A stretch of DNA of 64,000 nucleotides from Kribbella albertanoniae. Lineage in GTDB: Bacteria; Actinomycetota; Actinomycetes; Propionibacteriales; Kribbellaceae. A model generated the notes under the pieces. That model was given only the letters and a program-made list of their open reading frames with translations, made no database searches and had not been told where the DNA came from. The stretch spans positions 1 through 64,000 of the forward strand of contig NZ_SMKA01000001.1 in NCBI RefSeq assembly GCF_004348455.1, written 5' to 3'. The position numbers were made by a program, and so were the translations under genes. This document shows positions 30,205-50,827 of the stretch, one piece after another; within the stretch, counting starts at the first letter, position 1, and each line of letters starts with the position of its first letter.

Positions 30205-30216
30205 TCTAGGGCCAAT

Positions 30217-30252
30217 CGGGTGTGCCGGATGCAGTCTCGTCCGGCACACCCG
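30217..30252 (+). terminator. hairpin between precursor and lanB (probable attenuating terminator)
   Basis: CGGGTGTGCCGGA (30217-30229) and TCCGGCACACCCG (30240-30252) form a perfect 13-bp stem with a 10-base loop, 12 bases after the precursor stop. There is no U run. In RiPP operons such a hairpin typically lets the precursor be made in excess over its enzymes. Confidence 0.75.
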
Positions 30253-30289
30253 ACCACCGTGAGGACCCTGACCCGGGGAGGTCTTGACC

Positions 30290-33200
30290 GTGAAAGCACC
30301 GCGATCGCTCTACCGGCACAGCGGCATCATGTTGCTGAGGGCCACCACCTGCGACCCCGATCTCAAGCTCCCCGCCTGGCCGGCAGGCGTGCTGGACAGC
30401 GATGCCGAGTCGTGGAGCCACTGGCTGGCCGACCTGTGGGACATCACTGAGTTCCGCGACGCGGTGACGATCTCCACCCCGGACTTAGCACGGCAACTCG
30501 GTCAGATCCTCAATGTGGAAGGGCCAACAGCCCGTCAGTTGCACCGTATCGTCTTGTCGGTCGCGGCCTACCTCTTACGGTGGCAAGGACGCGCAACCCC
30601 GTTCGGTCTGTTCGCAGGGGTCGCGCTATCGCGGATCGATCCGGATGGTTCAGTCCGCTGGAGCGATCGGCAGTCCATCCAGACCAGCCCAGACGCGCAC
30701 TGGCTCGCCGCGGTCATCGACCGCCTGGACCACGATCCAGCCCTGCTGGAACAGCTACCGGTGATGGTGAACAATGCCAGCTTCCTGCGTGGCGACCGGA
30801 TCGTCACGCCTGGCCAGCCCAGCAGCATCGCACCGAACGAACTCGCGCCACTGGAGGTCTCAGTCCGCGCCACCGGGCCAGTCCGGGCCGCGATGGCCAA
30901 GACCCGCCGCCCGATCCGCTACAGCGACCTGGTCGTTGGACTGAGTGCTGAATTCCCGACCGCGACCGAGGCACGTATCCGGGCCCTGCTGGGAGAACTC
31001 CTGGCCAGCCACGTGTTGCTGACGAGTCTGTGGCCGCCGATGACCAGCACCGACCCGCTAGGCCACGTCCTGGTCCAGCTCGAGGGGGCAGGAAGCGGCG
31101 AGCTGCCGTCCGTGCTTGCGATCGAGCGCGAACTGCGCAGCGTCCACGCAGAACTGGCCCCGCGCAGGCACAGCGCGATCGACCCAAGGTTGCCTGAACG
31201 CATGAAGGCGGTCGCGGACACGGCCGGGCAGCCGCTGGTTGTCACCAGCGGTCTTGATATCGACATCGCCGTACCCGGCACAGTGCTTCGTGAGGCTGAG
31301 ATTGCTGCAACGACTCTGGTGCGATTGACGCCGTTTCCGTTCGGACAGCCAGCATGGAAGGCGTACCACGCCCGGTTCCTCGACCGCTTCGGTGTCGGCG
31401 CCGTGGTGCCACTGCGCAACCTCGTGCAGGATGCTGGCCTGGGTGTGCCGGCCGGCTACCTGGGCTCGGGTCGAAAACAGGGCCCCGCGCCGTTTACTCC
31501 TCGCGATGAAACGCTGCTGGGCCTGGTGCAGACCGCGATCATGGCCGGCAACGACGAGATCGAGCTGACCGAAGCGACGATCGCCTCGCTCACCGTGGGT
31601 GACACTGCCGAGATGCTCATCCCGCCCGCTACAGAACTGTCCTTCCAGATCCACGCCGAATCCACCGAACACATCAAGCGCGGCGACTTCCAGATCGCGG
31701 TGATCGCCGCGCCGCGCACGTCGAGCAGCATGATCGGCCGCTTCGCTGGCCTGCTTGCTCCAAGCGACCGTGATCAGCTTGCCAAGACACTGGCGTCACG
31801 ACCGACAGCGACCCCTGATGCGGTCCTCGCCCAGTTGTCGTTTCCTCCGCGAGGGCGGCGCAGCGAGAACGTCATCCGCGTACCAGAGTTGCTGCCGAGG
31901 CTGATCTCGCTGTCCGAACACCGCGCCCCTGCTGACGATCTGATCTCGCTCGATGATCTGGCGGTCACCGCTGATGCTCGCCAGATTCGCCTGGTCTCAC
32001 AGTCCACCGGGCAAACGGTGGAACCGGTGGTCTTGCATGCGTTGGAAGCCAGCGTGCAAACACCGCCCTTGGCACGCTTCCTCGCTGAGATCGCGACTGC
32101 GCGTTCCGCGGTCTACGGGCCGTTCAACTGGGGCGCTGCCGGCCAGCTGCCCTACCTCCCGCAACTGCGCCACGGACGGACGATCCTGTCGGCCGCGCGG
32201 TGGCTGGTGACGGCTACGGATCTGCCGGCCGCAACTGTCGCGGCGACGGTTTGGGACGAGGCGTTCGCTGCGTGGCGGCACCGGTTCGGTGTGCCCAGCG
32301 CGGTGGTGATGTGCCACAGCGACCTGCGGTTGCCGATCGACCTCGACCAGCCGGTTCATCGCGAGCTTCTCCGAGCCCGACTCGACCGGGGCGGACGTAT
32401 CGAGCTGCGCGAAGCCCCAACAGTCAACGATCACGGATGGTGTGGTGGCCGTCCCCACGAACTCGTCGTTCAACTGCACGCCGACCCGCCACCGCCGAAC
32501 CGCAGCACTCCAGAGCGTTCGGTCCGGGCAGTTCCGATCGATGCCGGTCATCTGCCCGGCAGATCGAGCTGGCTCGCAGTGCATGTTCACGGGCATCAAG
32601 ATCGCCAGGACGAGATCTTGACCGATCATCTGTCGAAGCTGTTCGACGATTGGGACAGTGGACCTCCAATGTGGTGGTTCCGTCGCTACCGGGACCTGGC
32701 AAAACCGGAGGCGGACCGCTATCTGCGCCTCTATATCTCAACGCCCGGCCCCGGCCAGCACTCGCAGGCAGCGGCGCGGCTGAACGGCTGGGCCAACCGA
32801 CTGCGAGCCAGCGGACTCGTCCCTCACATCGACCTGACCACCTATCACCCGGAGACGGGACGATACGGATTCGGCGCTGCGATGGCAGCTGCCGAAGCCG
32901 TGTTTGCCGCGGACTCGATCGCTGCTGTCGCACAGATTCACACCTCAATCCGGAGCAATGTCGAGCGCCAAGCACTGACTGTCGCGGGCCTGGTCGATCT
33001 CACGATCTCCTTCGACGGGTCAATGGCCGGCGGAATGCGGCGATTGATCGACGAGCTGCCACACGAACACGTCACGCTGGATCAGCGCCTCCGCGACACC
33101 GCGATGAGCCTGGCCGATCCGAGCGATGACTGGGCGGCGCTGCGATCAATCCCCGGTGGCGAACGGGTTCTTGACACCTGGAGACAGCGGCGTGCAGCGC

Positions 33201-33367
33201 TTACTGAGTACCGCCATCAGTTGACCGCCGCCAAGGATGCGCCGCCGGTGCTCAGATCGTTGCTCCACATGCATCACGTCAGGACCCTCGGTGTCGACCC
33301 GAAACAAGAAACGATAGGTCGGCGTCTCACCCGCTCGGTTGCACTGCGATGGGCAGCCACCTCATGA
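30290..33367 (+). CDS. class I lanthipeptide dehydratase LanB
   Basis: 1025 residues. The GTG at 30290 has GGGGAGG eight bases upstream; the TTG at 30284 is too close to that site. It has full-length LanB architecture: an N-terminal glutamyl-tRNA-dependent glutamylation domain (LLRWQGRATPFGLFAGVALS near residue 100, RLTPFPFGQPAWKAYHARFLDRFG near 350) and a C-terminal elimination domain (SWLAVHVHGHQDRQDEILTDHLSKLF...WWFRRYRDLAKPEADRYLRLYI, from about 760). It would convert Ser/Thr in the core to dehydroamino acids. The stop overlaps the next gene by ATGA. Confidence 0.92.
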   Translation: MKAPRSLYRHSGIMLLRATTCDPDLKLPAWPAGVLDSDAESWSHWLADLWDITEFRDAVTISTPDLARQLGQILNVEGPTARQLHRIVLSVAAYLLRWQGRATPFGLFAGVALSRIDPDGSVRWSDRQSIQTSPDAHWLAAVIDRLDHDPALLEQLPVMVNNASFLRGDRIVTPGQPSSIAPNELAPLEVSVRATGPVRAAMAKTRRPIRYSDLVVGLSAEFPTATEARIRALLGELLASHVLLTSLWPPMTSTDPLGHVLVQLEGAGSGELPSVLAIERELRSVHAELAPRRHSAIDPRLPERMKAVADTAGQPLVVTSGLDIDIAVPGTVLREAEIAATTLVRLTPFPFGQPAWKAYHARFLDRFGVGAVVPLRNLVQDAGLGVPAGYLGSGRKQGPAPFTPRDETLLGLVQTAIMAGNDEIELTEATIASLTVGDTAEMLIPPATELSFQIHAESTEHIKRGDFQIAVIAAPRTSSSMIGRFAGLLAPSDRDQLAKTLASRPTATPDAVLAQLSFPPRGRRSENVIRVPELLPRLISLSEHRAPADDLISLDDLAVTADARQIRLVSQSTGQTVEPVVLHALEASVQTPPLARFLAEIATARSAVYGPFNWGAAGQLPYLPQLRHGRTILSAARWLVTATDLPAATVAATVWDEAFAAWRHRFGVPSAVVMCHSDLRLPIDLDQPVHRELLRARLDRGGRIELREAPTVNDHGWCGGRPHELVVQLHADPPPPNRSTPERSVRAVPIDAGHLPGRSSWLAVHVHGHQDRQDEILTDHLSKLFDDWDSGPPMWWFRRYRDLAKPEADRYLRLYISTPGPGQHSQAAARLNGWANRLRASGLVPHIDLTTYHPETGRYGFGAAMAAAEAVFAADSIAAVAQIHTSIRSNVERQALTVAGLVDLTISFDGSMAGGMRRLIDELPHEHVTLDQRLRDTAMSLADPSDDWAALRSIPGGERVLDTWRQRRAALTEYRHQLTAAKDAPPVLRSLLHMHHVRTLGVDPKQETIGRRLTRSVALRWAATS

Positions 33368-34578
33368 GGACCGCTTTAGCCGACGCCGCAACGGTGATCG
33401 CCGACCAACTCACTCAGCCTCGGCAGTTCGCGCCAGGTGAGCGGTGGCGGGCGCAGTCACTGGCCAAGGACGCCGCAGGGATCGCGCTCCTGCACATCGA
33501 ACGCGCGCATCAGGGCCACGGGGACTGGGCAACAGCCCACACCTGGCTGAAGGCAGCAACCGCGGCAGACATCAGCGCCGCCGACGACGCGGGCCTCTAC
33601 TTCGGCGCACCGGCAGTCGCCTTCGCACTGCACACCGCGAGCGGCACCGGGCGATACTCCAAGGCACTAGCCGGCCTCGACACCTACGTCACCGCCCTGA
33701 CTCATCGTCGTCTCGACCGCGCCGAAGCACGCATGACTCGCGCCGAGGTGCCCAGCCTCGGCGAATTCGACCTCATCTACGGCCTGACCGGCATCGGCGC
33801 CTACCTGCTGCGCCGTGCCCCCGGCGGCGACGCCCTCCAGCGAACGCTCAGCTACCTCGTTCGCCTCACCGAGCCCATCGACGTCGACGGGACGATGCTG
33901 CCCGGCTGGTGGACATTCCATGACCCGTCGTTCAAGGAGTCAGCTGCCTTCCCTGGTGGTCACGGCAACCTCGGTCTGGCTCACGGCATCGCAGGGCCCT
34001 TGGCGCTGCTCTCGCTGGCGCTCCGAGCCGGCATCGTGGTCAACGGTCAGGTCGACGCCATCGAGCGGATCTGTGCATGGCTGGACACGTGGCGCCAACA
34101 CGACCGCGAAGGTTCCTGGTGGCCGCAATGGGTCAGCCGCGACGAACACCAAACACAACGGACGACACAGGAAGGACCGCTTCGGCCGTCGTGGTGCTAC
34201 GGCACACCCGGACTGGCGAGAGCACAGCAACTCGCCGCCATCGCCACCGACGATCCGGCCCGCAAACAGATGGCTGAGCAAGCACTGATCGCCTGCCTCG
34301 CTGACCAGACCCAGGTCGACCGGATCATCGACACCTCGCTCTGCCACGGCTGGGCCGGGCTCCTCCAAACCGCCTGGCGAACGGCCATCGACTCAGGCAA
34401 CCCCGCGTTCGACACCCTCCTCCAGCACCTTGCAGCTCAGCTAATTGCCCGCGGCCTGCCAGGTCACGGTGACGGGCAGGGGTTCCTCGAAGGCGATGCA
34501 GGACTGGCGCTCGCCCTACACACGGCCAGCGGCAGACCGACGGCCAGCGGATGGGACAGCTGCCTGCTCATCAACTGA
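33364..34578 (+). CDS. lanthionine synthetase cyclase LanC-like protein
   Basis: 404 residues from ATG 33364 (ATGA with lanB); an upstream GTG/ATG at 33349 is possible. The LanC toroid motifs are present: GGHGNLGLAHGIAG (GxHGxxG type), SWCYGTPG with the first zinc cysteine, and SLCHGWAG with the second zinc cysteine and histidine. It catalyses addition of Cys thiols to the dehydrated residues. It is shorter than stand-alone NisC by only a little and looks active. Confidence 0.92.
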   Translation: MRTALADAATVIADQLTQPRQFAPGERWRAQSLAKDAAGIALLHIERAHQGHGDWATAHTWLKAATAADISAADDAGLYFGAPAVAFALHTASGTGRYSKALAGLDTYVTALTHRRLDRAEARMTRAEVPSLGEFDLIYGLTGIGAYLLRRAPGGDALQRTLSYLVRLTEPIDVDGTMLPGWWTFHDPSFKESAAFPGGHGNLGLAHGIAGPLALLSLALRAGIVVNGQVDAIERICAWLDTWRQHDREGSWWPQWVSRDEHQTQRTTQEGPLRPSWCYGTPGLARAQQLAAIATDDPARKQMAEQALIACLADQTQVDRIIDTSLCHGWAGLLQTAWRTAIDSGNPAFDTLLQHLAAQLIARGLPGHGDGQGFLEGDAGLALALHTASGRPTASGWDSCLLIN

Positions 34579-34625
34579 CGCACGCAGTCCACCCACACAC
34601 CAACCGACATGGAGACCGGCCCCCA

Positions 34626-35621
34626 ATGATTCTCACTACGTCACTGCCCGACATCGAACACGGAGTGCTGGACGTTCTGGCTGGCCGGCCACTCTCGCAG
34701 GCCGCAAGTCATCGGGGCATACCGGCCGCGGAGCTCGCCGAGGCCGTCGAGTGCTACCGAACCGCTGGACGCGCCGCCCTGGAGCCGCACACACGAGTGG
34801 GCTGGCAGCAGGTCAACCTCGAATTCGCTGACTGGAACTCCATCGAACAAGAACCAGCAGCCCGGCTACGAGCAGCCCTGGAACGTGCCCAGGCAGCAGG
34901 CGCGATCGCGTCATGGTGGTTCATTCGCAAGGCACCCTGCTGGAGGCTACGAATCCACCCAGGCAGCACCACAACCCCGCAAGCAGCAATGCAGCACATC
35001 GACCGCCCGATCCGCGACCTTACGGTCTCAGGACATATCACCAGATCCTGGACGAGCATCTACGAACCCGAGACCGCAGCATTCGGCGGACACCGAGGGA
35101 TGCGGATCGCACACAACCTCTTTTACGCCGACAGTCACGCCATCCTGAACTACCTCACCACGACAACCAGCACTACCGAGCACCCTGTCGGGCGGCGCGA
35201 ACTGTCAACCGTCTTGTGCAGCGCCCTCATGCGCGGAGCCGGGCAGGACTGGTTCGAGCAAGGCGACATCTGGAGCCAAATCGCGGAACTCCGCCCCGTA
35301 CCGTCAGGCACATCCCTCGAGCGTCTGCCCGAGCTGACCGCAAACTTGCGGCATCTCATGACAATCGACACCAGACCGACAAGCGCCCTGATCACCGGCA
35401 GCACCCCATTGGCTTTTGCCTCAGCCTGGATCGAGGCCTTCAGCCGAGCCGGCGCCGCACTCGCCGCGACACCACTCACCAGAGGTGTCCGCGAGACCAT
35501 TGCCCACCACATCATCTTCCACTGGAACCGCATAGGTCTGTCCGCGACAACACAAAGCATCCTCACACGAGCGGCCAAGGCCGCGGTCTTTCCGCCCGGT
35601 ACCCAAAGCGTCGACACATGA
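34626..35621 (+). CDS. stand-alone thiopeptide-type bacteriocin biosynthesis domain protein
   Basis: 331 residues from ATG 34626; the frame is open 75 bases upstream, but that part overlaps lanC. The sequence WQQVNLEFADWNSIEQEPAARLRAALE...WWFIRKAPCWRLRIHPG and SWTSIYEPETAAFGG match the thiopep_ocin/SpaB C-terminal family, the glutamate-elimination fold. LanB here already carries such a domain, so this is a second copy on a separate chain, as seen in several FxLD loci. It may assist elimination or modify the N-terminus. Confidence 0.82.
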   Translation: MILTTSLPDIEHGVLDVLAGRPLSQAASHRGIPAAELAEAVECYRTAGRAALEPHTRVGWQQVNLEFADWNSIEQEPAARLRAALERAQAAGAIASWWFIRKAPCWRLRIHPGSTTTPQAAMQHIDRPIRDLTVSGHITRSWTSIYEPETAAFGGHRGMRIAHNLFYADSHAILNYLTTTTSTTEHPVGRRELSTVLCSALMRGAGQDWFEQGDIWSQIAELRPVPSGTSLERLPELTANLRHLMTIDTRPTSALITGSTPLAFASAWIEAFSRAGAALAATPLTRGVRETIAHHIIFHWNRIGLSATTQSILTRAAKAAVFPPGTQSVDT

Positions 35622-38655: not shown

Positions 38656-39366
38656 TTAGGGCGGTGCCGGGCGGGGACCAGCTCGCACGAGATGAAGCGG
38701 CGGTGGTGGCGCGTGCCGCCGGCCCCGCAGGTACTCGGGTAGGCCGCGAGGCCGCCGGGTCGCGTCGGGCTGCGGGAATCCGGGCGCGAGGGTTTGTAGG
38801 AGGCCTTGAGCCTGCTCGTGTATGACGGCGTCGCCGCGCTCGAGCGCGCACATGGCGAGCTCAGCGATGATCGCGATCGACTCGCGGGCCCGCTCACCGG
38901 GCTGGTGCATGACCCGGCCTGCGGTGTGGCGAGCGGCGAGTGCGTGGAAGGTGGCTTCGCGGATCAGCTGGACCGTCAACGGGCCGACATTCGGCAGCTC
39001 GAGCAGCACGGCGTTGGTGACTGAGGCGACCTCTTCGGCGGTGTGGAAGCCTGCCCTCTTCAGGACGTTGAACGATCGGGCCTGGAGTGCTTCGTGGAGG
39101 TCTTCGAGCGGGATCTGGTCCAGGGGATGCTGACCGTGCTGGCTGGCGAGGACGGCGCGGATCGTCGCCAGGCCTTCCGGGCCGATCTGCCGTACGTCGA
39201 GCAGGTCGGCGTCGCTGGCCGCGACCAGTTCGGTAACGGTCGCGACGCCGGCACGCTCAAGGATGCCTGTGAGCCGGGTCGGCAGCGGCGGCTGGAGTCC
39301 GCAGAGCGGGCTGGGCGCGATGTCGCGGCCGCTGAAGAGTGGGGGCGTACCGGGTTGGCTCGTCAT
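38656..39366 (-). CDS. protein with RNA-polymerase-alpha C-terminal-domain-like (HhH) repeats
   Basis: 236 residues from ATG 39366, overlapping the upstream methyltransferase by ATGA. Two copies of an alpha-CTD-like helix-hairpin motif are visible: RLTGILERAGVATVTELVAASDADLLDVRQIGPEGLATI and FNVLKRAGFHTAEEVASVTNAVLLELPNVGPLTVQLI. These bind DNA or act as protein contacts. It lacks the polymerase assembly domain, so it is not RpoA. The last ~50 residues are Pro/Arg-rich. Function unknown. Confidence 0.7.
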   Translation of the reverse strand: MTSQPGTPPLFSGRDIAPSPLCGLQPPLPTRLTGILERAGVATVTELVAASDADLLDVRQIGPEGLATIRAVLASQHGQHPLDQIPLEDLHEALQARSFNVLKRAGFHTAEEVASVTNAVLLELPNVGPLTVQLIREATFHALAARHTAGRVMHQPGERARESIAIIAELAMCALERGDAVIHEQAQGLLQTLAPGFPQPDATRRPRGLPEYLRGRRHAPPPPLHLVRAGPRPAPP

Positions 39367-40343
39367 TGGGGGCCTGGTTTCTGCCCGATGCCGCCGGCCA
39401 TGAGGTTGCGGGCGGCGTTGTAGGCGCTGTAGGGATACCTCTTGTCGTCGTCGTCCTTGGTGGGCCAGTCGCGGCACGCGACGACGCCGTTTTCCAGGAG
39501 GTGTTGTCCCGGGAACAGGGCCCGGATCTCGTCGAGCGAGCGAAACCGAACGACGGGACCCATGCCTTCGCAGAACCCTTGCTCGGCCTGTAGCGCGTCC
39601 TGGACCAGCTCGGGATCCTCCGGGATGTGCAGGTCGCTGATCACCGTGCAGGAGCCTGCCGCTGCGGCGGCGACGTAGGCCTTCATCACCTTGGCCACCG
39701 CGGCCACCTCGCCGCAGTGCTGATGCAGGGTCGCGGTCTGCAGGATCGCGATGGGCTGTGACCAGTCCAGGAATGCCTGCACTGTTTCGTCTCTGAGCAG
39801 CCCTTTCGGGTTGAAGATGTTGCCGGCGATCACCTCGGTGTTGTCGTTGGTGGCGAGCAGGGCCCGGGCGTGGGCGACGACCATCGGGTCGTGGTCGACG
39901 TAGAGCACTTTTGCGTCGGGGTTGATCGATTGCACGACGTCGTGGATCGGGTTCGGGGTCGGGATCCCGACCCCGCAGTCGAGGAACTGGGTGATGCCGA
40001 CCTCATGCACGAGGTAGGTGCAGGCGCGCTCGCGGAACTCTTGGTTCTCGGTAATCACCGTGCTGAAGCCGGGTGAGAATTTGAGGACGGTGGCGATGAC
40101 CTCGCGGTCGGCGGCGAAGTTGTTCTTGCCTCCGGTCAGACCGTCCCAGACCCGTGCAGGATTCGGACTCCGCTCGTCGAACTCCACGGGTCGGGCACCG
40201 GCATAGCCGGGCGGGAGACACCAGCTCCGAGAGGAGACAACCGCGGCCGACCCGCTGCTGAGGTGCTGAAGCCGCTGGTGCTGATCGTCACCGACGCCGG
40301 TCTGGTCATCCGCCGCGGCCGGTGCGATGTGTTTCGTGTTCAT
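39363..40343 (-). CDS. SAM-dependent methyltransferase, DUF574/PF04672 type
   Basis: 326 residues from ATG 40343. The signature PNPARVWDGLTGGKNNFAADREV precedes an atypical SAM site GITQFLDCGVGIPTPNP and KVLYVDHDPMVVAHARALL. It ends FRSLDEIRALFPGQHLLENGVVACRDW. This large actinobacterial family has no settled substrate. It is a paralogue of the gene upstream and is coupled to the alpha-CTD-like gene. Confidence 0.88.
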   Translation of the reverse strand: MNTKHIAPAAADDQTGVGDDQHQRLQHLSSGSAAVVSSRSWCLPPGYAGARPVEFDERSPNPARVWDGLTGGKNNFAADREVIATVLKFSPGFSTVITENQEFRERACTYLVHEVGITQFLDCGVGIPTPNPIHDVVQSINPDAKVLYVDHDPMVVAHARALLATNDNTEVIAGNIFNPKGLLRDETVQAFLDWSQPIAILQTATLHQHCGEVAAVAKVMKAYVAAAAAGSCTVISDLHIPEDPELVQDALQAEQGFCEGMGPVVRFRSLDEIRALFPGQHLLENGVVACRDWPTKDDDDKRYPYSAYNAARNLMAGGIGQKPGPQ

Positions 40344-40486
40344 CTGTGGGGCGGTTGTTCCTGTCCGATGCTGGCGCGCTCGAGGAGGCTGGCGATTCGG
40401 GCGGACAGCTGTGGATCGAAAGCGTCGGGCGGTGTCGCCGCGATGTAGTCCCCCGGGGCGCAGAGGAGCGGTGCCGGGATGGTTCC

Positions 40487-41329
40487 TCATCGCTGACCTG
40501 GCTTGCGTCCGATGCCGCCGACGATGAGGTCGCGGAAGACGTTGTCGGACTTCTCGGGCGGTTGATTGGGCCAGTGGCGGCACGCGACGATGCCGGGGTT
40601 GAGGAGTTCCTGGCCGGGGAAGAGGGCGGCGATCTCGTCCGGTGCTCGGAACCAGCCGGTACTGAGACCGGCGAGAAAGATCTTCTCGATGTCGCGCGCG
40701 ACCCTGTGGCCGCCGGGCTGGTCGGGGTCGACGAGGTGGCTGATCACCGTGCAGGAGCCGGCTGCAACCGCGTCGATGTAGGTCTGCATCACCTCGGTCA
40801 GCTCGGCGGCTTCGCCCGGGTGGTGGTGCAGGGTGGCGGTGTGGATGATCGCGACCGGTTGCGACCAGTCGAAGAACGTCTTCACGATGTCGTTCTCGAG
40901 CAGCGTGGTCGGATCGAAGATGTCGGCCGCGACGACTTCGGTGTTGTCGTTGGTCTGCAGCAGCGCCCTGGCGTGGGCAAGGACTATCGAGTCGTTGTCG
41001 ATGTACAGCACCTTCGCGTCAGGCCGGACGGCCTGGACCACTGCGTGCAGGGGGTTCGAGATCGGGAGACCGGCCCCGCAGTCTAGGAATTGGGTGATGC
41101 CCAGTTCACCGGCCAGGTAGGCGCCGGCCCGGATCAGGAACTGCTGGTTGTCGACGGCAACCATGCTGAACTCGGGTGCGAGATCCCGGATGGCGGCCAC
41201 GACCTCACGGTCGGACGCGTAGTTGTTCTTGCCGCCGAGCAGGCAGTCCCAGACCCGTGCACTGGCAGGGACGCCGATGTTGAAGCCGACGTCGGCCGTG
41301 TCTGGGTGCGGGTCGTGCTGGCTGCTCAC
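40487..41329 (-). CDS. SAM-dependent methyltransferase, DUF574/PF04672 type (second copy)
   Basis: 280 residues from GTG 41329 (GAGAGG upstream); the open frame extends to 41986 without family features. ASARVWDCLLGGKNNYASDREVVAA, ITQFLDCGAGLPISNPLHAVVQ and LYIDNDSIVLAHARALLQTNDNTEVVAAD parallel the downstream copy closely, pointing to an old tandem duplication. The gap between the two genes is 143 bases. The truncated third relative at 56.3 kb shows this family has spread locally. Confidence 0.9.
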   Translation of the reverse strand: MSSQHDPHPDTADVGFNIGVPASARVWDCLLGGKNNYASDREVVAAIRDLAPEFSMVAVDNQQFLIRAGAYLAGELGITQFLDCGAGLPISNPLHAVVQAVRPDAKVLYIDNDSIVLAHARALLQTNDNTEVVAADIFDPTTLLENDIVKTFFDWSQPVAIIHTATLHHHPGEAAELTEVMQTYIDAVAAGSCTVISHLVDPDQPGGHRVARDIEKIFLAGLSTGWFRAPDEIAALFPGQELLNPGIVACRHWPNQPPEKSDNVFRDLIVGGIGRKPGQR

Positions 41330-42054
41330 AGTGGCAAGGGCCTCTCGGGCTGCGCGGCTGGAGTGGGGAGGGTGGGCCCGGTGGGTGATCGTGCGGCGAC
41401 CACCCACCGGGCGATGCGGGATCCTCGGCGGTTCCTGGGAGGGGTATCGACCTGCCGACGGGGGAGTGGCGGATCGACGGCCGCCGGGATCCCGGTCTGG
41501 GGTGGTGCTGGAGACAAGGGTGTCGGTGTCATGAACCGAGCCCGCAGTGAGGGGAGGTCGGCCTCGTCTCCGGCACCAGCTGGTGGGGAACTCGCTTCGG
41601 CGAGCTGGTGTTCGACCCGGCCGGCGGCATCGTCCTGGGGGGACGACCGGTGTTAGTCGTCCTCGTCGCGCCAGCGGCGGAACTGGTCGTTGAGCCGGGC
41701 GAACCAGCGGTGCGCCCAAGTCCTCGTTGAGGCCAGTCGCCGGGTGAGCCACTCCATGGGGTCTCGCCCAGCCCGGTGCCGTCAGGGGCAAGGCCCCTGT
41801 CGAGCCGGGGGACAGCCGCAGCTGACGTGCCGTCAATCGCATGGCTGACCTCCCCCAGAAGTTCCCGCAGCGCCACGCGATTGCCACGCAGCTGAGCCCG
41901 GTCGTCTCACCCAGTGATGATGAATGTGCAACCAGTAAGCACCGTCGGGGCGTGCCTGGGGATGGCCAAATCGGGACATTCGGCACTTACTGATGGTGGC
42001 CAAAAGTGGGCGGCCCACTACCGAGCGGTGTGAGTTGGCGTCTACGGTTGGGCC
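41330..42054. other. divergent intergenic region
   Basis: 725 bases with no supportable gene between the methyltransferase operon and the regulator. The palindrome at 42005-42019 is the only element seen. Confidence 0.5.
42005..42019. promoter_or_regulatory. 15-bp palindrome upstream of the XRE-like gene
   Basis: AGTGGGC (42005-42011), centre G, GCCCACT (42013-42019), 35 bases before the downstream start. It may be the regulator's own operator. Confidence 0.45.
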
Positions 42055-43950: not shown

Positions 43951-44541
43951 TCAGAGCAGTTGCATCACGGCCTGCAGCAGCGCCGCGGCGACCTCCTCCG
44001 GCGTACCGTCGGCCGGCTGGCTGCGCAGCGTCCACCCGGACTCGTACAGCTCGTACAGCACGGCGTCGTAGACTGCGTGCTGCGCGATGAACGCAGCCGC
44101 TGGGTGTGGCTGGTCGCCGCGGACTGCGGCGCGGGCCTGACAGATGCTGGAGTCGGCGAGCAGCGCGACCGTGAGATCGGGGACGAGCGCGTCACGGTTC
44201 AGGGTGCGCAGGAAGTCCGGCGCGGCCCCGGCGAGCTCGTGCAGCGCGAACGCGCTGGGCAGGTAACTGTCGTAGACAACCACCGCCCCGCGCTCCAGGG
44301 CTGGAGTCACGACGTGGTTCAACTGTCGGTAGCGGTCGCCGGCAGACAGGCACGCCAGGATCTGACCGTCGTGCCGACCCATCGGCTCGTGCCTGAGGAC
44401 GTCGCCGATCGGTGATGCGCTGGGTTCGCCGGCCATCACGACCTCGAGCTCCAAGCGGCGAAGACCCGCCGCGAGCAGCGCGCAGGCGGTGGTCTTGCCG
44501 ACCGCGGTCGGGCCATCGACGACGATAAGGGTGCCGCTCAC
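43951..44541 (-). CDS. thymidylate-kinase-like P-loop protein
   Basis: 196 residues. Walker A is GPTAVGKTT (10-18); a DRYRQL motif near residue 69 and YDSYLPSAFALHELAG near 88 follow the dTMP kinase layout, with a degenerate lid. It overlaps the upstream helical protein by ATGA and ends 33 bases before the convergent GNAT stop. This dTMP-kinase-like plus helical-protein pair recurs in actinomycetes; it may phosphorylate a nucleotide or another small molecule. Last gene of the coupled operon. Confidence 0.8.
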   Translation of the reverse strand: MSGTLIVVDGPTAVGKTTACALLAAGLRRLELEVVMAGEPSASPIGDVLRHEPMGRHDGQILACLSAGDRYRQLNHVVTPALERGAVVVYDSYLPSAFALHELAGAAPDFLRTLNRDALVPDLTVALLADSSICQARAAVRGDQPHPAAAFIAQHAVYDAVLYELYESGWTLRSQPADGTPEEVAAALLQAVMQLL

Positions 44542-45701
44542 TCGGCACCCGCCCTGGGTCGGCCGGTTCCAGCTGTACGAGCCCCGTCCGGTGGCCTTTG
44601 CGTTGACTGCACAGACCGGCCTCCCGCGGCTGCGAGGTTGCGGATGGTGGTGGCTTCGCTGTGACGGACGACGTCGAGCAGTTTCCTGAGCTGCGATCGG
44701 CTAATCGAGTGGTCCAGGCCCGCTGACGCGACGGCGGCCCGGAGCCGTGCTCGCAGGGTGGCCGACAGGTCGCCGGCGATCGGGTGCGACAAGACGTCGC
44801 GAGCCGCGTACGCGTCGCCGGTGAGTGCGGGATCGCTGTTCAGCGCCTGAACCAACGACGCCGTCTCGCTGGCCGGGCTGAGGTCGGCAGCAGTGAGGAT
44901 GAGCCGGGTGCGGAACACAACAAGATCCGCCGCCGGGGCGGCGCGTTCGAGTTCGGCCGGGCTGAACAGCGGCTTGGTGCTGACCGGATCGCAGAGGCGG
45001 CCGAGGGCCCGGCGGACGAGGTGTTCCCAGCGTTCGGCCGGCTTGGCGGTGGCCAGGAGTTCGCGGGCGGTAGCGGTGTCGCCGCGCAGGTGGTGGGCGA
45101 TGACGGCGATCTGGCGGCCGTCGAGGAGCCGGCCGCCGATGCCCCGATGCAGCTCAACGGCGGTGAGTGCTTCATTCCAGCGCCCGGCGGTGGTGAGCGC
45201 GCGGGTTCCATCAGCCGACAGCACGGTCCACAGCCACCGGACGATCTCCGGCCGGGCAGCTGGGGTAAGGAGTTCGTCGAAGTCGATCGTGTGGCCTGCG
45301 ACGTCGACCTGGTCGTCATGCTGGGCTGCGGTGAGCAGGCCGGTCAGGAGCTGGTGGCCCTGCTCAGCCTTCCCTGCGCGGATCTCCAGGCGTGCAAGGT
45401 TGACGATGGGCTCAAGCGCCCGCCGGGCGTCGCCCGCGTCGAGCGGCTGGACCTGGCGATACAAGCGCAGTTGTTGCAGGCAGCAGGCCCGGGCAAGGTC
45501 GACTAGGCCGGCGTCGCTGGCGATGATCGCTGCCTGATGATGCACCGTCGCGGCCAGCGTCAACGCTTCGGCTCCGGTGGTGCGCCGGGCCCGGCGAACG
45601 GTGGCGACGAGCTGGTCGATCCGCCCGCTCAGAGATCGGCAGGCCGATCGCGGGTGCGCGACCAGCGGAAACCACCTCAGCGCGGCGGAGATGTTGATCA
45701 T
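44538..45701 (-). CDS. helical-repeat (TPR-like) protein coupled to the kinase
   Basis: 387 residues from ATG 45701, with GGTGGAGGG upstream and an ATGA overlap with the preceding small membrane protein. It is Ala/Leu-rich helices throughout (EALTLAATVHHQAAIIASDAGLVDLARACCLQQLRLYRQ, then RAGKAEQGHQLLTGLL), similar to TPR/ARM-type scaffolds. No catalytic motif. The last ~30 residues are low-complexity. Probably an adaptor for the kinase. Confidence 0.75.
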   Translation of the reverse strand: MINISAALRWFPLVAHPRSACRSLSGRIDQLVATVRRARRTTGAEALTLAATVHHQAAIIASDAGLVDLARACCLQQLRLYRQVQPLDAGDARRALEPIVNLARLEIRAGKAEQGHQLLTGLLTAAQHDDQVDVAGHTIDFDELLTPAARPEIVRWLWTVLSADGTRALTTAGRWNEALTAVELHRGIGGRLLDGRQIAVIAHHLRGDTATARELLATAKPAERWEHLVRRALGRLCDPVSTKPLFSPAELERAAPAADLVVFRTRLILTAADLSPASETASLVQALNSDPALTGDAYAARDVLSHPIAGDLSATLRARLRAAVASAGLDHSISRSQLRKLLDVVRHSEATTIRNLAAAGGRSVQSTQRPPDGARTAGTGRPRAGAE

Positions 45702-45889
45702 CCCTCCACCACCGTCTCCATCAGAACTGGCCACCCGCCCTCAGCGGACGGTGCACCGCAGTTGACAGGTAGCTCATGAGCCGTCGACGGCCGGTGACCG
45801 GTGAGGCCGAAGGCGATACCGAACGCGATCGAGGCGAGCACAAGACACAGATCGAGGACCAGCAGGTCGCCACCTGGCACCGGCGTCAT
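45698..45889 (-). CDS. small single-pass membrane protein
   Basis: 63 residues. One hydrophobic segment, LLVLDLCLVLASIAFGIAFGL (about 9-29), then a hydrophilic tail. ATGA overlaps at both its start (with the 195-residue gene) and its end (with the helical protein) argue strongly that it is translated. No family recognised. Confidence 0.7.
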   Translation of the reverse strand: MTPVPGGDLLVLDLCLVLASIAFGIAFGLTGHRPSTAHELPVNCGAPSAEGGWPVLMETVVEG

Positions 45890-46473
45890 CGAATCCCCAC
45901 CACAGCACGGCACCGGGCGATGACGCCGCGGACCAAGGCCCTGATCCGGCGCGCATCGCCGGGGACGACGTCGACGAAGACCAGCTCCCGGATCCGTCCA
46001 GTCTCACCATGTCCGGGTTCGACGCTGCCAAGTTGTTTGCCGCCGGCCACGGCGACCTCGATGTCGCATAGGAGCTCGATCGCGAGCGCGACCGTCTGGC
46101 CTCTGCCCAGCCGGTAGTGCCGTTCGAGCCGCAGCAGAACCTGGTGGGTGTCGTCAGCCAGCCACACCGCCACCCTGCGACTCGGCGTACCGCCGCACGA
46201 GGTCGCTATCTCGCGGGCCATCGCCTCGAGATCGAGGCCACGGACCCGCGAACGCTGAAACCACCTGCGGCCGACGATGACCGGCCGGTTGCCGCCGGCC
46301 ACCTCGCCGGTGAGGACCGCGAGTACGGCCAGCGCTCGCCTGACGGCCTCCGTCGCCGAGACTGCTCCCCGGTTCGCGGATCGCTGCAGATCCGCCACCG
46401 TGGCCTCGGGCAGGGCTTCGTCGAGGCGATGCAGCGAGTACAGGCCGGGGCTGAGGGGGGCGAGCGTTATCAC
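45886..46473 (-). CDS. unknown protein in the coupled operon
   Basis: 195 residues from a GTG. Charged, with an alanine-rich helix (AVRRALAVLAVLTGEVAGG), a segment DTHQVLLRLERHYRLGRGQTVALAIELLCDIEVAVAGG and C-terminal EPGHGETGRIRELVFVDVVPGDARRIRALVRG. No family recognised and no membrane segment. Its end overlaps the next start by ATGA; its upstream neighbour is 278 bases away across a hairpin. Confidence 0.6.
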   Translation of the reverse strand: MITLAPLSPGLYSLHRLDEALPEATVADLQRSANRGAVSATEAVRRALAVLAVLTGEVAGGNRPVIVGRRWFQRSRVRGLDLEAMAREIATSCGGTPSRRVAVWLADDTHQVLLRLERHYRLGRGQTVALAIELLCDIEVAVAGGKQLGSVEPGHGETGRIRELVFVDVVPGDARRIRALVRGVIARCRAVVGIR

Positions 46474-46508
46474 TGGAATCGGTCTTCCGGAAGTAGTGGG
46501 GTTGCGGC

Positions 46509-46544
46509 GGGCGGCCGCCGATGCAGGAGTCGAGACGGCCGCCC
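46509..46544. terminator. hairpin inside the minus-strand operon
   Basis: GGGCGGCCG (46509-46517) and CGGCCGCCC (46536-46544) form a 9-bp GC stem with an 18-base loop, in the only sizeable gap of the operon (46474-46751). It could lower expression of the second half, or mark two transcripts. Confidence 0.4.
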
Positions 46545-46751
46545 ACCGGTTGGGGCGAAGTCCCCGGCGCTCGGGGTGAGGCGCCTCGAGCCAGCCGGAC
46601 GCAGGGGCGTCCGGAGGGGCGGGTCGAGGGCCGGGGACTTCGGTCAGGAGGGGGTGGGACCCGTACAGCGGCAGCCGGTGAGGAGACCGGCCGCCGGCGG
46701 TCGGCTCGGATGAGGAGTTCCGGAGCCGGGTGCCGGGGCCCCACCCCCGGA

Positions 46752-47153
46752 TCAGGGGAACACCTCGGTCACATCGGTTCCTTGCCGCTGCAGGTACTGG
46801 CGGCGGGTCTCAGCCGTGGTCCGGCCTTCGAGGTCGATCGCGGCCGGGTCGAGGTGTGCGAGCGTGGTCACGAGCACCGGGCTCGGGGCGGCGGTCTCGA
46901 TCCTGTTCCGCAACGCCTGGAACCCACCACCCCCACCGTCCGGCTCGTCGACGTAGGTTGCGATGAGGCTGAGCTGGTGCCGCTCTGCGTACTCCCGGAT
47001 CCGCGCCAGGTGAGCGTCGAGCTCGGCGCGCCTCATCTTCGTGGCGTCGACGTAACCCAAGGTCCAGGCACTCGGCCTGCCCTCCGCCTGGAGGAGTGCT
47101 CGCACGGCGTCGCTGCTGCCCGAAACGGCAGCCCCGGTCCATTCGGTGGTCAC
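46752..47153 (-). CDS. serine-recombinase-NTD-like protein without catalytic serine (copy 3)
   Basis: 133 residues from GTG 47153 (GTGA overlap). LGYVDATKMRRAELDAHLARIREYAERHQLSLIATYVDEPDGGGGGFQALRNRIE follows the resolvase N-terminal pattern GY-x-R-x-S...AQL..LREYAER.GLEL..-YVDE closely, but the R-x-S catalytic pair reads DAT. It has no DNA-binding tail. Probably a non-catalytic fold reused for binding. Two related genes lie directly upstream. Confidence 0.7.
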   Translation of the reverse strand: MTTEWTGAAVSGSSDAVRALLQAEGRPSAWTLGYVDATKMRRAELDAHLARIREYAERHQLSLIATYVDEPDGGGGGFQALRNRIETAAPSPVLVTTLAHLDPAAIDLEGRTTAETRRQYLQRQGTDVTEVFP

Positions 47154-47686
47154 GTCGGCCCATCCGCTGTCGGCCGCACGGTTGCGCCCGTGCCGGCTTC
47201 GATCTGCGCGCGACGGGTCTCGGTTGTCGCGGGTCCGGCGGGCGAGTCGACGTGGTCGAGGTGCGGCACGAGCACGAACTGCGGGTGGAAGCGTTCGATG
47301 CTGATCATCAGCGCACGAAACTGCGATCCACCACAGCCTGGATGGTCGACATAGATGTTGCCCAGGCCCAATCGGTGCTTGGCGGCGTACTCCGCGATCT
47401 CCGCACGAGCCTTCGACACCGCGTCCGCGGCATCAGCCTCGTCTGCCTGCTCGACGTCGGCCGCCTCGGCCTGTTCGGCGTCTGCACCGTCCGGACTCCG
47501 CTGACCAGCGGGCCGGGCCAGTCTGGCCGCGTCGATGTAGCCGATGACGAGCGGGCTCGGGTGGCTACCCCACTCGGTCTCGGCCTCCATCAGGTGTCCT
47601 TTCAGGGCCAGTCCTGCATCGATGACGTGTTTGATCATCGGCAGCAGTGCCGGCCCGCGGCGCGGCGCCGCGGTGACCGGCGTCAT
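47150..47686 (-). CDS. serine-recombinase-NTD-like protein without catalytic serine (copy 2)
   Basis: 178 residues from ATG 47686, chosen because it gives an ATGA overlap. The resolvase-like core is PLVIGYIDAARL...ARAEIAEYAAKHRLGLGNIYVDHPGCGGSQFRALMISIERFHPQFVLVPHLDHVD; an Asp/Glu/Ala-rich insert (DGADAEQAEAADVEQADEAD) separates the first strand from the first helix. No catalytic serine. An N-terminal helix of ~40 residues is specific to this copy. Confidence 0.65.
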   Translation of the reverse strand: MTPVTAAPRRGPALLPMIKHVIDAGLALKGHLMEAETEWGSHPSPLVIGYIDAARLARPAGQRSPDGADAEQAEAADVEQADEADAADAVSKARAEIAEYAAKHRLGLGNIYVDHPGCGGSQFRALMISIERFHPQFVLVPHLDHVDSPAGPATTETRRAQIEAGTGATVRPTADGPT

Positions 47687-48024
47687 CGCGCGCACCTGCC
47701 ATCGACGCGTACCAGCAACGGCACGGGCACCACCGGCACTCCGGCGTCGTCCAGGAGCTTGGCGTAGTGCTTGGGCAGCTCGGTGCCGGCGAGGACGGCG
47801 ACGGTCGGCACGGGATCGCTGCTGATGACCTTGTCGTGCAGAGCGCTGATCCGCGCTGTTCCGGTCTCGAGCGTCTCGACGAACTGTTCGGCGAGGTTGA
47901 ACCCCTCGGCCTGGGCGAAATCGGCCAGGTGCTGTCGCAGTTCGTGAGCGGTGTCCGCCGTGGCCGCCGGGTGCTTGATCGTGACGTACCCGAGCAGAGT
48001 CGGGCGAGTGAGATCGACCGTCAT
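47683..48024 (-). CDS. serine-recombinase-NTD-like protein without catalytic serine (copy 1)
   Basis: 113 residues, coupled by ATGA at both ends. LLGYVTIKHPAATADTAHELRQHLADFAQAEGFNLAEQFVETLETGTARISALHDKV resembles the same fold as the two following genes but more distantly, and again without the Ser. The C-terminal DDAGVPVVPVPLLVRVDG is a short strand-rich end. Confidence 0.6.
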   Translation of the reverse strand: MTVDLTRPTLLGYVTIKHPAATADTAHELRQHLADFAQAEGFNLAEQFVETLETGTARISALHDKVISSDPVPTVAVLAGTELPKHYAKLLDDAGVPVVPVPLLVRVDGRCAR

Positions 48025-48221
48025 CCCTTGTCTCCTGCCTGCGGGGCTACCGCAGTCGTTCCGACCAATTGGTTGGTGACACGCAATCCGGCGAATCGGC
48101 TGCGCATCGCGCTCTCGTACCGCGCGGCCAGCGCCGGCTCAGCGGTGTACATGGCGATGATGTGCTGGCCGAACCAGACCCGAACTGTCCGACGGCCACC
48201 AAGAGCTGAGGACGAGGTCAC
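48021..48221 (-). CDS. small unknown protein in the coupled operon
   Basis: 66 residues from GTG 48221, with GCGAAGGA just upstream. RTVRVWFGQHIIAMYTAEPALAARYESAMRSRFAGLRVTNQLVG. GTGA overlap with the tiny gene before it and ATGA overlap with the next. The longer frame to 48590 crosses the promoter region and is not used. Function unknown. Confidence 0.65.
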   Translation of the reverse strand: MTSSSALGGRRTVRVWFGQHIIAMYTAEPALAARYESAMRSRFAGLRVTNQLVGTTAVAPQAGDKG

Positions 48222-48313
48222 CAGTCCTTCGCCTCCTGCACCTGATCGCGGAAGAACCCGATACCGGCGGCTGCGGCAAGCAGCCAGAGCAGGAGGTATA
48301 CGGCCTGGTACAT
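48218..48313 (-). CDS. 31-residue membrane peptide, first gene of the coupled operon
   Basis: MYQAVYLLLWLLAAAAGIGF then FRDQVQEAKDW. A single hydrophobic helix with a short charged tail, below usual length cut-offs. GGGGAGA precedes its ATG, and its TGA overlaps the next GTG. It lies 96 bases from the palindrome at 48410-48434, so it is probably the leader gene of the transcript. Confidence 0.6.
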   Translation of the reverse strand: MYQAVYLLLWLLAAAAGIGFFRDQVQEAKDW

Positions 48314-48409
48314 GGTGTCTCCCCGTAGCGCATCGGTCAGTGGGTGCTTGAGCTGTTGCTCTAGGTGACCGATTCTGGAGAGATTCCGCCAGGAAGATCG
48401 AGGGTTCTG

Positions 48410-48434
48410 CTGTTGACAAATAGTTTGTCAACAG
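48410..48434. promoter_or_regulatory. perfect 25-bp palindrome between operon and regulator
   Basis: CTGTTGACAAA (48410-48420), spacer TAG, TTTGTCAACAG (48424-48434). It is strikingly AT-rich for the window, and each arm contains a TTGACA that could serve as a -35 box for the strand it reads on. It lies in the region between the divergent minus-strand operon and the XRE gene at 48508, so it is very likely a dimer-binding operator controlling both. Confidence 0.75.
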
Positions 48435-48507
48435 CCAGATCGTGCGATCATGAATCACCTGTAGTGACCTGGTGGTGACGAAATTCGTGCCTTCGAGGGG
48501 AGAAGCT

Positions 48508-49917
48508 GTGAGGAAGACGGGGAAGGGTTCAGGCTCACTGGAGTCGGCCCAGCAGTTCTTCGGTGCCGAGCTGCGGCACTGGCGAACCACCCGCGGTCTT
48601 TCGCTGCGCCAACTCGCGGAACTTACGCACGAGTCGTACGCCTTGATCTACAGGGTCGAGAAAGCCGAGCGATCTCCGTCAGCCGATCTGGCAGTTCGCG
48701 CTGACGCTGTCCTGAACACCGATGGTGCCTTGAAGAGGAGCTGGTCGCGCGTCGAGCAGGCCAAAGCTGCGGCCAAGAAGGCTCCAGAACCGATTGCTTC
48801 CACGCTGGGCTTGGGGTGGGACTCGTCGACCGCCTCGACCGTGGGCACCGTGGCGGGCCTTTGGCGGGCGGACCTGAGTGGCGTCGAACCAGTCGTGGGA
48901 GCTGCCTGGACACCTGAAGCAGCCCTGGACCCGGCCCGGCGCTGGCTGTCGCATGACGACGATCTCGACACCTCGCACCGCGGCGGCCGGAGGATCGGGC
49001 GCAGCGAGGTCGAGGTGATGTGGTCGATGTGCCGAGCCTTCGCGGATGCTGATCACCATCTCGGTGGCGGATATGCCCGCTCGACGCTGATCCAGTTCGT
49101 GAACCAGACCGTCTTGCCGCTGCTTGCAGGCACCTACGACGCGGAGACCGGCCGACAGTTGCTTACCGCGGCCGCCCGGTTGTCCGACCTCGGCGGCTTC
49201 ATGTGTTTCGACTCCGCTCGCCAGGGCCTTGGCCAGCGCTACTACATCCAGGCACTACGTCTCGCCTCGGCCGCCGGTGACCGGGCGCTCGGCGCGCACA
49301 TCCTGGCCGACATGTCTCTGCAGGCTCACGACCTTGGGCGACCACGAGAGGCGCTCGCGCTTGCCGAGGCCGGGCACCGCACCGCCCGCGACTGTGGTTC
49401 GCCGTCGACGGCAGCACGGTGCAGCGCGCTGCAGGCCAGAGCCCACGCGCTGGCCGGCGATCGGCCCGCGACAGCTGCTGCGATGACGACGGCCGAGCAC
49501 GAACTCAACACGGCCCAGCCGGACGATGAGCCGTTCTGGATCCGGTTCTTCACCCCCGAGCAGCTCGCCGCGGAGTTTATGTACGCAGCGCATGACCTCG
49601 GTCAATCAGCAGAAGTCCAAGAGCACGCACCCACCGTGCTGGCCAGTTCTGCGGCGATGCAGCGCCGTGAGGTCTTGGCCGCGTCGACGCTGGCGTCGTC
49701 CTATCTGCCCGGGACCCGCAGCAAGTTCAGCACCGTTGATGTGGAGCGCGCTTGCGACATCCTCACCAAGGCGCTGCCTTCGGCAGCTGGTCTCACCAGC
49801 GCTCGAGGGCTGACCTCGATCAACTCCGTGCGGCGTCAGCTCGCGCCGTATCACTCGCTGCCGGCTGTGCAGGAGGTCGAGCAGACGTTCGCGGAGTTCG
49901 CCACCGCCGGCAGCTAG
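48508..49917 (+). CDS. XRE-family regulator with helical-repeat C-terminus (copy A)
   Basis: 469 residues from GTG 48508 (GGGGAGAAGCT upstream). The frame is open to 48472, but that start has no such site. The helix-turn-helix near residues 15-70 is FFGAELRHWRTTRGLSLRQLAELTHESYALIYRVEKAERSPSADLAVRADA. The middle has RGGRRIGRSEVEVMWSMCRAFADADHHLGGGYARS, and long helical repeats follow. This block is shared with the paralogue at 50922-52334. It faces the small-gene operon across the 25-bp palindrome and is its likely regulator. Confidence 0.85.
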   Translation: MRKTGKGSGSLESAQQFFGAELRHWRTTRGLSLRQLAELTHESYALIYRVEKAERSPSADLAVRADAVLNTDGALKRSWSRVEQAKAAAKKAPEPIASTLGLGWDSSTASTVGTVAGLWRADLSGVEPVVGAAWTPEAALDPARRWLSHDDDLDTSHRGGRRIGRSEVEVMWSMCRAFADADHHLGGGYARSTLIQFVNQTVLPLLAGTYDAETGRQLLTAAARLSDLGGFMCFDSARQGLGQRYYIQALRLASAAGDRALGAHILADMSLQAHDLGRPREALALAEAGHRTARDCGSPSTAARCSALQARAHALAGDRPATAAAMTTAEHELNTAQPDDEPFWIRFFTPEQLAAEFMYAAHDLGQSAEVQEHAPTVLASSAAMQRREVLAASTLASSYLPGTRSKFSTVDVERACDILTKALPSAAGLTSARGLTSINSVRRQLAPYHSLPAVQEVEQTFAEFATAGS

Positions 49918-49918
49918 A

Positions 49919-50827
49919 GTGCCGCTCGTGCGCACCGACCTTGACCGAATCCTGCACACGGCTTGCCGCCGCCGGAACATCGATGCCACCGGCGCCGAGC
50001 TGATCCATCACTACAGCAACGCCGTGTATCTACTCCCGGCCGCCGAAGCGATCGCCCGGATCAACACCGGTGGTGAGAGTGCCGGCAGGCTGGAGACGAC
50101 CCAAGTCATCACCTCTTGGCTCGTCGATCACCAGAACTTCGCAGCGACAGCACCACTGCCGGGATCCGAGCTCGTGCAGACGGATTCTTCGACTGTGGTG
50201 ACGTTCTGGACCTACTATCGCCAACCCGACCCAGCCCCGGAGCTCACCTCCGCGCATCTGGGTGGGCTACTCCACGCCCTCCACCACATCGCGGCACCGC
50301 CGGTGGAGGTTCCGGCCTGGCAACCGCTGGAATCTTTGCAGCACGCGCTCGCCGACCCGGTCGCGCAGAACGCGCTGTCACCGGATGAGCGAGGCTGGTT
50401 GAAGAGCCGGATCCAGGATCTTGAAGAGGAACTGGCAGGCCTGGACTGGCCGCTCGGATACGGCCTGATCCACGGCGACGCCTGGGCCGGCAATCTGCTG
50501 TGGGCGTCCCATCACGATCCCCGTGTCGCCATGCTGTGTGACTGGGACCGGGTCAGTCACGGACCCCGGGAAGTCGATCTGATCCCGACTTGGCACGCTG
50601 CCCTCCGCTACGGCCGCGACGAGGCGTGGATCCAGGGTTTCGTGAATCGCTACGGCTACGACCTGCGTGACGGCGTCGGCTACGAGGCGCTCCTGGCCAT
50701 GCGAGACCTCGCTCAACTTCCGGGACCGATGCGCCGCACATCGAGCCCTGCTTATGCAGCAGTGCTCCGCCAACGGTTCGACGCGATCCGCGCAAATCAC
50801 AGCCCGGGCACCTGGGTCACGCTCTAA
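49919..50827 (+). CDS. aminoglycoside-phosphotransferase-like kinase
   Basis: 302 residues, starting one base after the regulator stop. The catalytic loop GLIHGDAWAGNLLW (HGD, with Asn) and the metal-binding LCDWDRVSHGPREVDL (D-W-D) mark the APH/choline-kinase fold. The N-terminal lobe is short and divergent. Possibly phosphorylates a small molecule rather than an antibiotic. It is sandwiched between two paralogous regulators. Confidence 0.87.
   Translation: MPLVRTDLDRILHTACRRRNIDATGAELIHHYSNAVYLLPAAEAIARINTGGESAGRLETTQVITSWLVDHQNFAATAPLPGSELVQTDSSTVVTFWTYYRQPDPAPELTSAHLGGLLHALHHIAAPPVEVPAWQPLESLQHALADPVAQNALSPDERGWLKSRIQDLEEELAGLDWPLGYGLIHGDAWAGNLLWASHHDPRVAMLCDWDRVSHGPREVDLIPTWHAALRYGRDEAWIQGFVNRYGYDLRDGVGYEALLAMRDLAQLPGPMRRTSSPAYAAVLRQRFDAIRANHSPGTWVTL

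Follow-up and report, generated by a model that had tools for sequence, protein, structure and literature searches.

A composite operon in Kribbella albertanoniae combines a recurrent small-protein cassette, a structured element, and companions of FxLD lanthipeptide genes

The first 64,000 nucleotides of contig NZ_SMKA01000001.1 of Kribbella albertanoniae (assembly GCF_004348455.1, 9.7 Mb), here called the window, contain an operon of nine genes, p1 to p9, that is transcribed divergently from a gene encoding an XRE regulator (Table 1). The initial annotation of the window had claimed nine minus-strand open reading frames (ORFs) at 43951-48313, and we located all of them there with the sizes it gave. 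Within the blocks 48313-46752 and 46473-43951, the genes meet in 4-base overlaps at all seven junctions, as claimed: GTGA at p1/p2, p4/p5, and p8/p9, and ATGA at p2/p3, p3/p4, p6/p7, and p7/p8. The single 278-base gap that was reported to interrupt the series was found at 46474-46751. The XRE gene does face the operon across a perfect palindrome, but the palindrome measures 27 bp rather than 25 bp. Relatives of p2 to p8 in Kribbella genomes argue that these are real frames; matches for p1 (E values of 0.08 and 1.6e-3) and p7 (E = 3.9e-4) are weak, and their frames are otherwise supported by position and a hydrophobic stretch. None of p1 to p8 matches a Pfam or NCBIfam family above cutoff.

Table 1. 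Features of the operon, its divergent neighbors, and the separate FxLD core in the window
Feature	Position	Strand	Description
p1	48218-48313	-	31-aa membrane peptide; open frame
p2	48021-48221	-	66-aa microprotein; family repeated in Kribbella
p3	47683-48024	-	113 aa; recombinase-fold protein without serine; type found after p2
p4	47150-47686	-	178 aa (181 from alternative start); recombinase-fold protein without serine
p5	46752-47153	-	133 aa; recombinase-fold protein without serine
Structured element (former "gap")	46474-46751	-	278 nt, between p5 and p6
Element domain 1	about 46650-46748	-	Folded domain
Element domain 2	about 46552-46642	-	Folded domain
p6	45886-46473	-	195 aa; both halves like the 121-aa gene before the K. 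catacumbae FxLD precursor
p7	45698-45889	-	63-aa membrane protein at the lanthipeptide-core position
p8	44538-45701	-	387 aa (398 from alternative start); homolog of the gene following FxLD core genes
p9	43951-44541	-	196 aa; thymidylate-kinase-like
Palindrome	48409-48435		Perfect; presumed operator between XRE and p1; 12-nt arms, 3-nt spacer
XRE regulator, NsdA family	48472-49917	+	Divergent from operon; NCBIfam NF053720
APH-type phosphotransferase	49919-50827	+	Adjoins XRE; Pfam PF01636, 53.3 bits (cutoff 23.2)
Separate FxLD core	28674-35621	+	Possible partner in trans; about 8 kb from operon
FxLD methyltransferase	28674-29963	+	NCBIfam
FxLD precursor	30034-30204	+	NCBIfam; 14 kb from operon, other strand
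LanB	30284-33367	+	NCBIfam, LanB C terminus
LanC	33349-34578	+	Homology to plasmid FxLD operons
Thiopeptide-type protein	34551-35621	+	NCBIfam, stand-alone domain

The operon is a composite, and looks less like a nine-part machine than like a control cassette that can be exchanged. Subsets of its genes occur separately: p1 and p2 with one recombinase-fold gene (loci L152 and L155); a p1-like gene, p2, p4, p5, and the structured element ahead of other genes (L170); p8 beside FxLD genes; and p9 relatives in the three plasmid operons that we opened, each with a radical S-adenosylmethionine (SAM) gene. The nine genes had been proposed to form a unit, but by the refuting condition set in the initial annotation they are not a conserved one: no other Kribbella genome carried p8 and p9 together in the searches made, and searches with p8, p6, p9, p2, or the recombinase-fold profile revealed no genome that repeats the full set of nine.

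By homology, p1 to p5 are a cassette of families that recur in Kribbella. The p2 family is present in all 38 genomes, with 5 to 12 matches in each, and gave zero matches in the 196 non-Kribbella genomes of the class that were searched. Among the 150 p2 matches listed, a recombinase-fold gene follows on the same strand in 15, where 0.02 would be expected, and precedes p2 in none. We examined 23 p2-bearing stretches, two of which (L021 and L025) overlap; nine carry a relative of the XRE and/or APH gene and seven a recombinase-fold gene. Weak relatives of p1 lie ahead of p2 in L152 and L155, and short p1-like hydrophobic peptides precede p2 or p4 in several Kribbella stretches.

p3, p4, and p5 had been described as resolvase-like proteins without the catalytic serine; alignment agrees for all three, and the predicted fold agrees for p5 only. 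p4 and p5 are homologous and p3 is more distant; p4 homologs were found in K. catacumbae and in two other Kribbella genomes, G028 and G035. An AlphaFold2 model of p5, with the window and K. catacumbae proteins as input, reached a mean predicted local distance difference test (pLDDT) score of 76, with a core near 90. Its best 11 Foldseek matches in the PDB had a probability of 1.00, TM scores to the query of 0.47 to 0.58, and E values of 0.003 to 0.015 (the best was 2.9e-3, with nothing at E ≤ 0.001); eight of these are titled serine recombinase, integrase, or resolvase and three (3lhk) "putative DNA binding protein." p5 models as a serine-recombinase catalytic fold, to which p3 and p4 are assigned by alignment. 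At the position of the motif GYxRxS, which we take as the serine-recombinase reference, p5 has GYVDAT, p4 GYIDAA, and p3 GYVTIK, so that none of the three is expected to be a working recombinase. They resemble the catalytic domains of serine recombinases (IS607 TnpA, TP901-1 integrase, and resolvases) in the predicted p5 fold, but differ in having no serine at the motif and in being short chains without a DNA-binding domain.

By sequence, similarity to PDB entries reached only E = 0.2. The profile of the set matches 139 places across 38 of 38 Kribbella genomes; among 296 genomes of the class it matches 10, including our own, mostly weakly. XRE genes neighbor several of these class-wide matches, and no clear cassette was seen around them. 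Searched against genome contigs, a p4/p5 profile found a single locus, in K. catacumbae, and p4, p5, and p6 had no match in the plasmid collection. Outside Kribbella, at L051:5744-9356, a recombinase-like protein that the profile matches weakly (E = 2e-4) lies close to p8 and an FxLD operon.

The sequence between p5 and p6 is a structured element: its 278 nt fold at -164.4 kcal/mol, compared with -124.6 ± 4.8 in shuffles (z = -8.3). Alignable sequence lies at the corresponding position in G028 and K. catacumbae, and in the three-sequence alignments each domain has 6 of 33 pairs with two-sided changes. When the 38 Kribbella genomes were searched with a covariance model built on domain 2, G035 yielded a fourth copy (62 bits, E = 2e-9); the remaining strong matches were the three training sequences, and a further match at E = 0.44 was not counted. 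In the four-sequence alignment, pairing holds in 96.9% of cells and two-sided changes affect 7 of 33 pairs, compared with an average of 2.2 in shuffles (1 of 500 as high) and 0 to 2 in slid controls. G-U cells outnumber A-C cells by 7 to 2, which favors the operon strand as the RNA. The element begins at the p5 stop codon in four of four loci; in G035 the stop codon is met directly by domain 2, which suggests that this copy lacks domain 1. Some unpaired letters are invariant, for example those of a CCCCUG loop. No Rfam 15 family reached gathering score and none below it was plausible. In 394 genomes of the class, the model found beyond the window only three matches (28 to 32 bits, E = 0.007 to 0.036), which we take as chance.

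The genes behind the element differ among Kribbella species. Both G028 and K. catacumbae have p4, p5, the element, and p6' (our name for the gene before the precursor), followed on one strand by the FxLD precursor, LanB, LanC, the methyltransferase, and a truncated p8. G035 has the same cassette and element, then DUF6879 and helix-turn-helix (HTH)/DUF5753 (XRE) genes; here, the element is followed by p6 to p9. At another K. catacumbae locus (L152:1653-10070), an XRE-APH pair and a p1-p2-recombinase-fold cassette precede MurA-like, dCTP-deaminase-like, and glycosyltransferase genes, possibly a biosynthetic cluster.

p6 appears to be a doubled version of p6'. Aligned with p6', its N-terminal half scored 58 (maximum of 500 shuffles, 59) and its C-terminal half 89 (maximum, 49); because the self-similarity of p6 (29, compared with 28.5) is not above shuffles, the case for duplication depends on the separate match of each half to p6'. 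Among the Kribbella genomes, p6 was found in our own, its C-terminal half in G028 and G026, and weak matches to its N-terminal half in G034, G012, and G025. Pfam gave no match for p6 or its Kribbella relatives, and the PDB sequence search none for p6; assignment as a ribbon-helix-helix protein would depend on a weak TraY match (E = 0.038), and the fold model of p6 is unusable (pLDDT 37.7). p7 has a weak relative in G028 and no NCBIfam match.

Homology and position mark p8 as a companion gene in operons with an FxLD methyltransferase. It matches 10 plasmid records; in the five of five that were opened, it lies directly after FxLD core genes, with 36 to 38% identity over nearly its full length. 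Against the genomes of 97 relatives, p8 was found in our own, G028, and G026, with weak matches in G024 and G065. At thresholds of E = 1e-60 and E = 1e-10, respectively, 82 of 394 class genomes encode an FxLD methyltransferase and 45 encode p8; 48 of the 60 p8 places are within 12 kb of a listed FxLD methyltransferase, and the other 12 comprise the window (15.8 kb), two in G422 that are megabases off, and nine on contigs without a listed methyltransferase. p8 is not a universal companion: it occurs in 25 of 60 FxLD loci that were hand-picked for flanking sequence, a single locus from each genome, out of at least 150 methyltransferase places. None of these 60 loci carries p2, p3, p4, p5, p6, or p7; p1 is not part of them either, and a p9-like gene is present in one (L089). 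The RNA model had no match in them, beyond two loci covering one place at E = 0.66.

The description of p9 as thymidylate (dTMP) kinase-like is borne out by a match to Pfam PF02223 (65 bits, cutoff 27); its score against the dTMP kinase equivalog, 74.9 bits, is under the cutoff of 83.25. Matches to p9 occur in all 38 Kribbella genomes, nearly all in long frames of 660 to 790 aa that we take to be the ordinary kinase; in G027 (L163:4690-7361) a shorter p9-like kinase frame is divergent from an XRE-APH pair. p9-like kinases with 33 to 41% identity are encoded in Streptomyces plasmid operons (3 of 21 records opened). In these three (L022, L023, and L024), a radical SAM gene and a dTMP-kinase-like gene are followed by a NUDIX gene (two plasmids) or an endonuclease/exonuclease/phosphatase gene (one). 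The operons share the kinase with ours, but no relative of p1 to p8 was found in them by tblastn at E = 0.05, except a marginal match to p3 (E = 0.016).

Of the roles guessed at earlier, a link to ribosomally synthesized and posttranslationally modified peptides is supported for p6 and p8. Defense is not supported: a PADLOC scan at E ≤ 1, which covered p2 to p9 and XRE but not p1, gave no match for p2 to p8 and one weak match for p9 (candidate family PDC-M51B, 26 bits); the XRE protein matched HTH components such as capH.

The FxLD precursor, LanB, LanC, and FxLD methyltransferase are all absent between p6 and p8. The operon resembles FxLD operons (NCBIfam TIGR04363 and TIGR04364; PIMT-type methyltransferase) in carrying p8, which there follows the core genes, but lacks the precursor and core enzymes and so is not an FxLD operon, though it carries the companions of one. 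A survey (PMC7268733) describes the four largest class I lanthipeptide precursor families as actinobacterial, with no characterized member in 2020, and as coming with an O-methyltransferase, one of which was shown to act on a conserved Asp; we infer that these families are of the FxLD/TIGR04364 type. The window does contain a separate FxLD core (Table 1), which has no p8 gene beside it, and a second FxLD methyltransferase is encoded elsewhere in the same genome (G000:C77:20384-21562).

The XRE regulator scores as an NsdA family member (NF053720, 279.9 bits, cutoff 75), though under the cutoff for the NsdA equivalog (122 bits, cutoff 830). Known small partners of NsdA-family XRE regulators are of DUF397 type; here the partners are instead p1, p2, and recombinase-fold proteins. 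NsdA of Streptomyces rimosus has been described as a negative regulator of rimocidin biosynthesis (PMC12243394). The XRE-APH pair is retained in G028 (identity 62 to 63% and 61%); among the p2-bearing stretches, its orientation relative to p2 is divergent in some and the same in others. The palindrome (GCTGTTGACAAATAGTTTGTCAACAGC, 27 bp) was not reached in any of 200 mononucleotide shuffles of its 181-bp region, and the whole window has four perfect palindromes with arms of ≥10 and a spacer of ≤5. G028 has a palindrome with arms of 10 and a spacer of 3 at the matching place.

The reading that we prefer, and hold with moderate confidence, is of a composite operon in which a Kribbella cassette, a conserved element, and varying cargo are switched by XRE and gated by RNA. 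Its composition, homologies, placement, and covariation come from sequence, and the p5 fold from prediction. XRE would bind the palindrome and switch both divergent transcripts. The element, as an operon-strand RNA, would control the amount of transcription or of intact message that continues beyond the cassette into the genes behind it. This action is probably linked to p5 translation, since the 5' side of the first stem would be covered by a ribosome terminating on p5. The recombinase-fold proteins, being inactive, are probably binding or assembly proteins, possibly acting on the element, RNA binding being a guess. p6 to p9 may contribute to maturation or control related to lanthipeptides, perhaps acting in trans for the FxLD core some 8 kb off.

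Several observations weigh against this reading. The folds of the G028 and K. catacumbae copies stand out less from shuffles (z of only -2.4 and -2.6); 8 of 33 domain-1 pairs are broken in one of three sequences; and the four-row alignment from which covariation was counted had been fitted to the structure. Just four copies of the element are available, and the model was trained on three of them, leaving G035 as the sole independent find. A clear palindrome was present in only 4 of 14 regions tested. The nearby LanB is no closer to Kribbella LanB proteins (38%) than to those of Streptomyces and Embleya (36 to 40%), so the core at 28674-35621 is not simply a displaced core of the operon. Finally, translational gating of p6 is not supported: with the first stem blocked, as it would be by a ribosome at the p5 stop, predicted access to the p6 start was unchanged (0.43 versus 0.44), so that a translational switch is less likely than control of read-through by transcription or of message processing.

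Among other explanations, the one that survives best, though we consider it unlikely, is that the operon is a relic of a Kribbella FxLD operon from which the precursor and modification genes once present between p6 and p8 have disappeared, with the remaining genes drifting. The core is indeed absent while the flanking genes are colinear with those of G028 and K. catacumbae, and truncation of p8 in both of those implies that decay occurs at such loci. However, the nine frames are intact with tight overlaps, and those kept by the gene caller have coding-like third-position G+C; moreover, p6 has been enlarged, and p7 and p9 added rather than lost. We give a little less credence to a bolder form of our own reading, in which a genus-specific, exchangeable cassette uses the serine-less recombinase-fold proteins, encoded immediately upstream, to bind a conserved three-way-junction RNA that ends their own message and to decide expression of the cargo, whether lanthipeptide, DUF6879/XRE, or other genes, under the XRE switch.

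It is somewhat less probable again that the element does no more than separate two expression levels, as an ordinary strong terminator or a hairpin for message stability. Very stable stems in a G+C-rich genome, and the lack of a predicted translational effect on p6, would fit such a role; the invariant CCCCUG loop, the three-way junction, and the constant placement at the p5 stop exceed what a terminator needs, and there is no T run after domain 2. Still more doubtful is that the hairpins act as DNA, as a recombination or insertion site for exchange of cargo with the recombinase-fold proteins as accessories: the cargo does change directly behind the element and p5 has a recombinase fold, but p3, p4, and p5 lack the catalytic serine, the wobble pairs favor one RNA strand, and no mobile-element gene was recognized by Pfam or NCBIfam between p9 and XRE. 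Finally, the nine-subunit, fixed-ratio complex for signaling or defense that had been read from the dense translational coupling is very improbable, given that parts of the set occur without each other and PADLOC returned nothing for p2 to p8 and one weak match for p9.

Other features of the window include a small membrane protein gene with two CxxC motifs and no Pfam match (61167-61733, minus strand); a similar protein is encoded directly before p4 in G028 (by eye, at L019 about 16160-16875, minus strand). Two adjoining look-alike genes lie at 39363-41986 (minus strand), of which 39363-40583 encodes an S-adenosyl methyltransferase (Pfam PF04672); a protein like theirs is encoded upstream in L019, again by eye. 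A pPIWI_RE defense module occupies 3021-10754 (minus strand) with a pPIWI protein with an RNase H domain, a DinG-type helicase, and an associated restriction endonuclease (REase), and helicase, DNA methylase, and ATPase genes at 12271-21228 (plus strand) have HmaA, HmaB, and HmaC (Hma-type defense) as best PADLOC matches.

We found nothing in the literature on this operon, its RNA, or the serine-less recombinase-fold proteins of Kribbella. What had been nine unfamiliar genes now presents a testable architecture: a Kribbella control cassette, a structured RNA that shows compensatory changes and is absent from Rfam 15, and FxLD-tied cargo. If the RNA does gate the cargo, it would provide a means of approaching silent lanthipeptide genes and would give a function to the serine-less recombinase-fold proteins that abound in Kribbella; if those proteins also bind it, the operon would represent a new kind of protein-RNA gate derived from the serine-recombinase fold.

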